A DNA stretch of 64,000 nucleotides from Mesorhizobium liriopis (GTDB lineage: Bacteria > Pseudomonadota > Alphaproteobacteria > Rhizobiales > Rhizobiaceae): positions 124,001-188,000 of the forward strand of contig NZ_JAMXQS010000006.1 in assembly GCF_024053505.1 (NCBI RefSeq). Direction: 5' to 3'. Positions 29,366 through 29,938 of this stretch are shown here, piece after piece. The notes beneath the pieces were generated by a model. It did no database searches and was not told the DNA's origin. It saw nothing but the letters and a program-made list of their open reading frames with translations. Both the position numbers and the translations under genes were made by a program. Position 1 is the stretch's first letter; each line of letters begins with the position of its first letter.

Positions 29366-29380
29366 GTTCCTTGTTTGTTC
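29366..29380. promoter_or_regulatory. LexA binding site (SOS box) 2, GTTC-N7-GTTC
   Basis: The sequence GTTCCTTGTTTGTTC is the direct-repeat form of the alphaproteobacterial LexA operator. Its centre is 27 bp from box 1, so two LexA dimers could sit on nearly the same helix face. Confidence 0.75.
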
Positions 29381-29409
29381 TAAGCAATGTGGTCGGTCTC
29401 CACAAGAGA

Positions 29410-29442
29410 AAGCCCTCCGAGCTCGGAAGCAGCGGAGGGCTT
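29410..29442 (-). terminator. Hairpin resembling a minus-strand terminator in the ssb-uvrA gap
   Basis: A 10-bp perfect stem AAGCCCTCCG / CGGAGGGCTT with a 13-base loop. Read on the minus strand it is followed by TCTCTTGT, giving a T-rich tail, and begins 22 bases after the stop of the open frame ending at 29465. On the plus strand there is no T-run. Confidence 0.5.
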
Positions 29443-29581
29443 GCATGGCAACGCCATTGGCAGTTCAGGATGCCGGCCTTTGTTCGTGACGCAACGCGAA
29501 ACCGCGCGGTCCGACTATAGTCTCTTCGGTGGGTTGGGTTTCGGCTTCGCGCGCCGGGATGAGCCAGCTCGTATCGGCCGT

Positions 29582-29608
29582 GGCTCCAATCGTCAGGTGG
29601 AGCCTTTT
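29582..29608 (+). other. Terminator-like hairpin in the ssb-uvrA gap
   Basis: A 7-bp perfect stem GGCTCCA / TGGAGCC with a 9-base loop followed by TTTT on the plus strand. On the minus strand the same stem overlaps the last codons of an 11-codon frame with a strong ribosome-binding site (29593-29628). Confidence 0.45.
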
Positions 29609-29938
29609 GAACGCTGCGGTGGAGTCATGGCCTCCCTCCGGTTCGTTGCTCACAATGTTCAGCCACCTTCCCGGTGCCTGCGGCGCCTCGCAGGCGGTCG
29701 CTGATCGACGCGGGTGCAAGAAGGCTGGAACAGGATGAAACGTGCGCCCGATCACGCAGCCTGTCAACGAAAACGGAATCATGCTCGCGGATTCGTGAAT
29801 GTCAGGACGCGACAGCACCAAATTGCCGCTGGATTTGTTTCCGTTGCGTTCTCACTTAAGCCGATGTTAATCACTGCAACGATCTAGGCGCCGCGCCCGT
29901 TAGCCGTTCGACCGCGCCACCCACACTCCCGAGATATC

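Follow-up and report, generated by a model that had tools for sequence, protein, structure and literature searches.

Features of the ssb-uvrA intergenic block

The window, by which we mean the whole stretch of 64,000 nucleotides analysed here, contains between ssb and uvrA a block (29381 to 29938) for which an SOS-induced small RNA, a leader of uvrA or ssb, or a small gene had been proposed. All features named in this original prediction were confirmed at their positions. These are a TGTGG/CCACA hairpin at 29388 to 29404, a 10-bp stem (AAGCCCTCCG/CGGAGGGCTT) at 29410 to 29442, a GGCTCCA/TGGAGCC stem followed by TTTT at 29582 to 29608, and a LexA-type box, a perfect GTTC-N7-GTTC, at 29366 to 29380. 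On the minus strand, GGAGGGAGG at 29639 to 29631 is followed by an ATG and a frame of 11 codons, the stop of which, at 29593, lies inside the GGCTCCA/TGGAGCC hairpin.

By energy alone, the hairpins of the block were not beyond chance on either strand. The minus-strand transcript folded with a z-score of -1.53 (6 of 100 shuffles were as good) and the plus strand from 29381 to 29611 with a z-score of -1.16 (26 of 200 shuffles). At an E value of ≤1, none of the eight ORFs tested matched a Pfam family. At gathering score, Rfam 15 (4,227 families) gave only tRNA elsewhere in the window and nothing in the block, where sX6 and ohsC scored far below threshold. The same search of 12 loci from relatives produced a sole match outside the element, to the rpsB sRNA (RF01815, 42.9 bits, L085:2144-2254), beyond ssb on its 3' side in one of the relatives. 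The RNA described below therefore matches no family in the Rfam release searched; the Rhizobiales-1 motif is given no Rfam accession in the table of Weinberg et al. (2010) with which to compare it.

Comparison with relatives by gene position

A nucleotide search with the whole block against 61 genomes, the route to conservation that had been suggested, recovered its own genome and two 42-bit fragments only. Taken alone this would suggest that the block is unconserved, so a comparison by gene position was needed, and it was by position that conservation became visible. The ssb regions compared came from the best 80 of 579 named contigs (with best hits in Mesorhizobium, Phyllobacterium, Chelativorans and others) and from genomes of the window's family. 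In many relatives the ssb-uvrA gap was found to hold a conserved block whose parts fit together on the minus strand, consisting of a Shine-Dalgarno sequence, ATG-ACT-CCA-CCG-GAC, a hairpin and a 3' module, with the hairpin differing in sequence between relatives but occupying the same place. Judged against these relatives, the predicted minus-strand elements greatly exceed chance expectation. A counterpart of the 5-bp TGTGG/CCACA stem was not seen by eye in the three nearest relatives. The earlier interpretation was thus partly supported: an RNA does appear to lie in the block, and the minus-strand GGAGG with its short frame running into a hairpin was the key observation. The 63-residue gene was not supported, as none of the eight ORFs tested had a Pfam match and conservation falls on the parts of the RNA gene.

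Predicted anatomy of the minus-strand RNA gene

Taken together, the comparisons indicate that the block almost certainly contains a conserved RNA gene, about 330 nt long, on the minus strand. Its predicted transcript occupies 29404 to 29732, with the start placed about 7 nt past the -10 element and the end at the terminator. The -35 element, TTGACA, lies at 29762 to 29767 and is separated by a spacer of 17 from the -10 element, CACGTT, at 29739 to 29744 (CANNAT in many relatives). Among the 137 elements having at least 200 nt upstream, TTGAC was present in 134 (mean of 20 in base shuffles) and the full promoter pattern in 126 (mean of 1.25), and all 27 aligned upstream regions carried TTGAC on the minus strand. 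The 5' untranslated region contains a hairpin, P1 (CCTGCG-AGGCGC-CGCAGG, 29677 to 29694), which with a loop of AGACGC or AGGCGC was found in 71 of 151 elements, compared with 1.6 in shuffles. The outer three pairs of P1 covary, all three holding in 83% of 29 distinct sequences versus 44% with the arms swapped.

The Shine-Dalgarno sequence GGAGGGAGG (29631 to 29639) is followed by the mini-ORF (29593 to 29628), which reads MTPPQRSKGST-stop. GGAG, GAGG or AGGA was observed ahead of the ATG in 152 of 152 unique elements, a count that partly reflects the inclusion of a Shine-Dalgarno-type context in the early motif searches. The hairpin behind the mini-ORF, P2 (GGCTCCA-9 nt-TGGAGCC, 29582 to 29604), begins 24 nt (0-based) from the A of the ATG. 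Further downstream is the 3' module, CCACCGAAGAGACTATAGTCGGACC...CACGAAC (29480 to 29532), which forms the 3' end of the window's match to covariance model R1 (29480 to 29642, E value of 1.1e-22). This module is degenerate relative to the ACAATCAGAGAC...GTCGGAT...ATCCGA of relatives, in which its stem covaries from GGAT/ATCC to GGGC/GCCC. Several loci from order families f2, f7 and f23 (e.g. L160, L162, L163, L165 and L177) were seen by eye to carry 3' modules with a different core, GAGGGCG, a hairpin and CAGAGCC, the geometry of Shine-Dalgarno sequence, ORF and P2 being unchanged. The gene ends in a putative intrinsic terminator at 29404 to 29442, AAGCCCTCCG-13 nt-CGGAGGGCTT followed by TCTCTT, which is the 10-bp stem noted above. 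Under the rule used, a terminator-like hairpin was present in 113 of 150 elements and absent in 37, compared with 3 of 40 shuffled sequences. In silico, the RNA thus has its own promoter and terminator and belongs to no longer mRNA, as would a dual-function small RNA.

Distribution of the RNA gene

Model R1 was built from 20 sequences (176 positions, 17 pairs). At the match cut used (E ≤ 0.01), near which some rows are false (e.g. G002, L173) so that all tallies include some false rows, R1 matched 123 of 394 genomes of the family, representing 46 of 109 genera, with the window copy at an E value of 9.8e-22. There was one copy per genome, bar one weak second match in G200. Among 81 sources, namely the window and the named contigs, 32 matched, including Mesorhizobium, Pseudaminobacter, Chelativorans, Aquamicrobium and Oryzicola; the non-matches say little, because many of these sources stop short of uvrA. 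In the order search, 22 of 249 genomes matched R1. When 20 regions from weak or distant R1 matches were inspected, 14 showed the Shine-Dalgarno sequence, Pro-Pro ORF and hairpin, while L167, L168, L169, L173 and L176 look false and L179 lacked the motif.

The second model, R2 (71 positions, alignment A3), covers only the region from the Shine-Dalgarno sequence to P2. It matched 94 of 247 family genomes and, in the order search, 30 of 297 genomes; 24 of these 30 loci had the full geometry on inspection and 6 did not, and 16 of the 24 fall outside the window's family, in 8 families. The class search returned 11 of 289, the window's own genome included, of which L270, L271 and perhaps L278 look real, giving two or three outside the order. 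R2 also misses real copies, as L290 of G016 was found by position only. The predicted RNA gene therefore recurs in many family genomes, extends to other families of the order and occurs in a few genomes outside the order.

In 20 of 20 R2-unmatched family genomes examined, no mini-ORF was present in the 1.2 kb upstream of ssb, indicating that the RNA gene is dispensable. Nineteen of these genomes show uvrA upstream of ssb, 17 of them within about 410 bp, and just one LexA box is present in 18 of the 20. Family genomes lacking the RNA gene (L292 to L311) mostly have this compact ssb-uvrA gap with a single box, and genomes with it often have two; where present in the gap, the RNA gene separates the two repair genes.

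Covariation of the predicted stems

The original prediction held that compensatory changes in the stems would support an RNA, and such changes were found in both alignments, A2 and A3. In A2, whose structure underlies R1, 88.5% of cells were paired, compared with 29 to 46% for slid versions, and its 24 double-sided cells were reached by 0 of 500 shuffles. Two of the five measures on A2 were weaker, further pair types being at the shuffled level (283 of 500) and double-sided pairs being reached by 24 of 500 shuffles. In A3, 43 double-sided cells were counted, a number that none of 500 shuffles reached, and the covariation score lay above all 500; pairs with a change on both sides were reached by 13 of 500. 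Covariation of P2 was judged from A2 and A3, as the arm-swap measure is biased by the selection of the P2 arms as hairpins.

Coding constraint on the mini-ORF

The mini-ORF was compared across 152 unique elements, obtained from 188 R2 rows by removing nine (L101, taken as a copy of L027, and eight short partial matches) and merging 27 identical copies. In all 152 the ORF begins Met-x-Pro-Pro, with Met and Pro-Pro invariant, and P2 starts at an offset of 24 to 26 nt from the A of the ATG in 142; these invariances are partly ascertainment and are upper estimates, because the early motif searches and both models favour look-alike copies. Only starts leading into Pro-Pro were counted and both models hold ATG-Pro-Pro and hairpin columns, yet 0 of 179 rows lacked such a start. 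At codons 3 and 4 the third base alone varies (152 of 152), with entropies by position of 0, 0 and 0.56 bits at codon 3 and 0, 0 and 1.13 bits at codon 4, and codon 8 near 2 bits throughout. Residue 2 is T, N, S, I or K. Residue 5 is D in 129 elements, E in 7, G in 7, K in 4, N in 3 and Q in 2; the window mini-ORF reads MTPPQ. This pattern argues that Met-x-Pro-Pro-x is very probably under coding selection, which is again as in a dual-function small RNA.

We considered whether the ORF might encode a functional secreted or regulatory micropeptide of 19 residues, MTPPDSPxRLxxxxEPRQA. More elements encode 19 residues (51 of 152) than any other length, and EPR[QR]A is a recurring C-terminal sequence. 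This tail, however, coincides with the 3' arm of P2, which can account for the recurrence, codon 8 is near random, and the length ranges from 6 to 39 residues in the 152 elements and from 5 to 39 when L290 and L287 are included, so we regard a micropeptide as improbable. The stop follows after 6 to 8 codons in 15 of 152 elements and directly after codon 5 in the further divergent copies L290 (MSPPD) and L287 (MSPPA), which suggests that the length of the peptide is free and that Pro-Pro-X is not. Other divergent copies read MSPPDYTA or MSPPDYVA (L281 to L283) and MTPPEKR... (L286). What is kept thus appears to be translation through Pro-Pro-X and not a peptide.

Neighbourhood of the RNA gene and its relation to LexA boxes

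Of the 80 genomes with a located uvrA, which are the better-scoring part of the 123 R1-matched genomes, 73 have the element no more than about 1 kb from uvrA and divergent from it. The element lies 1.8 to 6.4 kb from uvrA in G174, G200 and G258, and on a separate contig from uvrA in two of the 80. In G028 and G150, uvrA is more than 230 kb off and the element is about 300 bp upstream of ssb. In G128 the element adjoins uvrA, the best-scoring ssb match, among the matches listed, is about 210 kb away, and the 3 kb beside the element (locus L144) shows other genes. Because it is also found away from one or both of ssb and uvrA, sometimes beside ssb only or beside neither gene, the predicted RNA gene is autonomous and is not a leader of either. 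In some Mesorhizobium loci (L008:459-848, similarly in L004 and L245), a frame for a small, uncharacterised, exported-looking protein (LPGVxxDYRIAKPxPEPDDA) sits between the RNA gene and a clpP-like frame and converges on the RNA gene.

The order of Shine-Dalgarno sequence, short ORF, hairpin and terminator resembles that of leader peptides, and in the window ssb is codirectional and downstream, so that a ribosome-dependent attenuator of the downstream gene, here ssb, was also considered. Across nine genomes, eight of the nine large ORFs downstream of the element had Pfam families; all eight differed and four of the eight are antisense to the RNA, so no conserved same-strand gene directly follows. 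In addition, ssb has its own LexA box downstream of the RNA terminator, and the arrangement in G128 does not fit an ssb attenuator. We consider this explanation quite improbable, and the suggested uvrA or ssb leader was not borne out, as the RNA gene is divergent from uvrA, has its own terminator ahead of ssb and exists apart from these genes.

The box at 29366 to 29380 (GTTCCTTGTTTGTTC, plus strand) is the ssb-side box and sits downstream of the terminator of the RNA gene. The LexA box nearest to the RNA promoter is the uvrA-side one at 29837 to 29851 (GTTTCCGTTGCGTTC, plus strand), which is degenerate with one mismatch and about 70 bp upstream of the -35 element, and thus in the window no box overlaps or adjoins the promoter as would be expected of an RNA of the SOS regulon. 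Both boxes are neighbours of the RNA gene and lie outside it. Of the 49 loci reaching both genes, 37 had a perfect GTTC-N7-GTTC no more than 200 bp from ssb, 38 had one no more than 260 bp from uvrA, and 2 had neither. The uvrA-side box of the window has lost a key base, and uvrA may be less SOS-responsive in this genome. A plus-strand small RNA induced from the LexA boxes had been envisaged, and the window does contain a true LexA-type box at 29366 to 29380 and a terminator-like plus-strand hairpin at 29582 to 29608. The supposed terminator ending at 29608 is, however, P2 read from the other strand, all three conserved features (promoter, ORF and terminator) belong to the minus strand, the box is the one on the ssb side, and plus-strand folding is unexceptional. 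Such an RNA is extremely improbable.

Proposed role of the Pro-Pro-X motif

We propose that the purpose of the mini-ORF is to induce a ribosome pause at Pro-Pro-X. A ribosome's leading edge lies about 15 to 16 nt beyond the first nucleotide of the P-site codon. If the P site is occupied by the second Pro codon and the A site by codon 5, this edge would stand at offset 24 to 25, where P2 has its base in almost every copy. EF-P, which is encoded in the window's genome, or a sufficient supply of prolyl-tRNA would relieve the pause, and the share of RNA carrying a parked ribosome would set the folding, the stability or the availability of the 3' module, so that the RNA would report the state of translation. 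As no gene consistently follows the RNA gene, the RNA would act in trans. We lean modestly toward a programmed Pro-Pro-X pause against P2 on an autonomous regulatory RNA, and with the same slight preference toward the pause as the function of the mini-ORF; action in trans is predicted with about even confidence.

The residue that follows Pro-Pro bears on this proposal. In a study of Escherichia coli by ribosome profiling and reporters (PMC4140641), acidic A-site residues stalled Pro-Pro-X whatever the -2 residue, PPG is cited as a strong pause without EF-P, hydrophobic and aromatic residues gave no stall, a PP-basic pause required an acidic -2 residue, and PP-amide can fail to pause after a hydroxyl residue. 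When this sequence criterion for an EF-P-dependent pause was applied to the 152 elements, residue 5 was D or E in 136, G in 7 and another residue in 9. Some copies speak against the pause. A Lys at residue 5, found in 4 of 152, is expected to cause a pause only following an acidic residue, and the Ala of L287 is left unexplained. The window's own MTPPQ is a PP-amide after a hydroxyl residue and may pause weakly. The 3' module and the -10 element of the window, which are poorer than those of relatives, also count against the proposal, and together MTPPQ and the degenerate 3' module may mean that the window carries a weakened copy.

A different reading is that of an ordinary trans-acting base-pairing small RNA, whose 3' module and ACAAUC segment would pair with mRNAs and whose mini-ORF would only bring ribosomes that protect the RNA or compete for its use. 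In keeping with this, the RNA gene has its own predicted promoter and terminator, the 3' stem is conserved with covariation, and A[CA]AAT[CT] was found in 114 of 152 elements (13.7 in shuffles) at a median position of +106. It would leave unexplained, however, why Pro-Pro and D, E or G are retained while peptide length and the remainder drift, and why the distance from the ATG to the hairpin is fixed. We rate this reading as unlikely, though it deserves consideration. The pause at Pro-Pro-X, extended to its full scope, would describe a widespread group of free-standing alphaproteobacterial riboregulators in which a five-codon Met-x-Pro-Pro-Asp ORF parks a ribosome against a hairpin, so that the activity of a trans-acting RNA to which no gene is attached would follow the state of EF-P or prolyl-tRNA; we put this forward as a tentative and still doubtful generalisation.

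Stalling at Pro-Pro-X has been known chiefly as a difficulty resolved by EF-P, or as an element of cis-acting switches in leaders. If the proposal is true, a large bacterial order, nodule symbionts among its members, would have in this RNA a natural means of reporting or regulating the status of EF-P and proline-tRNA. The basis for this is a conserved, usually single-copy, free-standing RNA with a Met-x-Pro-Pro-x constraint and a hairpin at the distance of the ribosome's leading edge. The RNA gene would also account for the non-coding block beside uvrA in many genomes and would provide a testable RNA family without a match in the Rfam release searched.

Relationship to known systems

Among the titles and abstract openings searched, no description of the minus-strand RNA was found; the terms uvrA and ssb are absent from the main text of PMC3927594, PMC5596092, PMC10117765 and PMC2245857, and uvrA from that of PMC5082802. 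The candidate motifs Rhizobiales-1 and Rhizobiales-2 (Weinberg et al., 2010; PMC2864571) are likewise predicted RNAs of the same order; Rhizobiales-2 is RF01723, and no Rfam family reached threshold at the window element. MH_s13, an intergenic small RNA of 366 nt from M. huakuii 7653R (PMC5596092), is similar in being an unannotated Mesorhizobium RNA of comparable length. When its synteny (speF, 4.5S RNA, glycine riboswitch) was compared with G240, position and strand fit two of the three markers, but there was disagreement in the glycine-riboswitch marker and in the direction of the right-hand gene.

The mgtL leader of Salmonella (PMC6460261) contains a short ORF too; its proline codons are described as responding when EF-P is lost. 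It differs in lying in the mgtA leader and acting in cis, whereas the window RNA has no attached regulated gene and a single Pro-Pro pair, at codons 3 and 4. rnTrpL/peTrpL of Sinorhizobium meliloti (PMC7298713) is similarly a short alphaproteobacterial RNA with a tiny ORF and a terminator at its end, and action in trans is reported for it. In contrast to the window RNA, rnTrpL derives from the trpE(G) attenuator and starts at the ATG of its ORF; the RNA predicted here has a long 5' untranslated region, no fixed downstream gene, and a conserved coding core of Pro-Pro.
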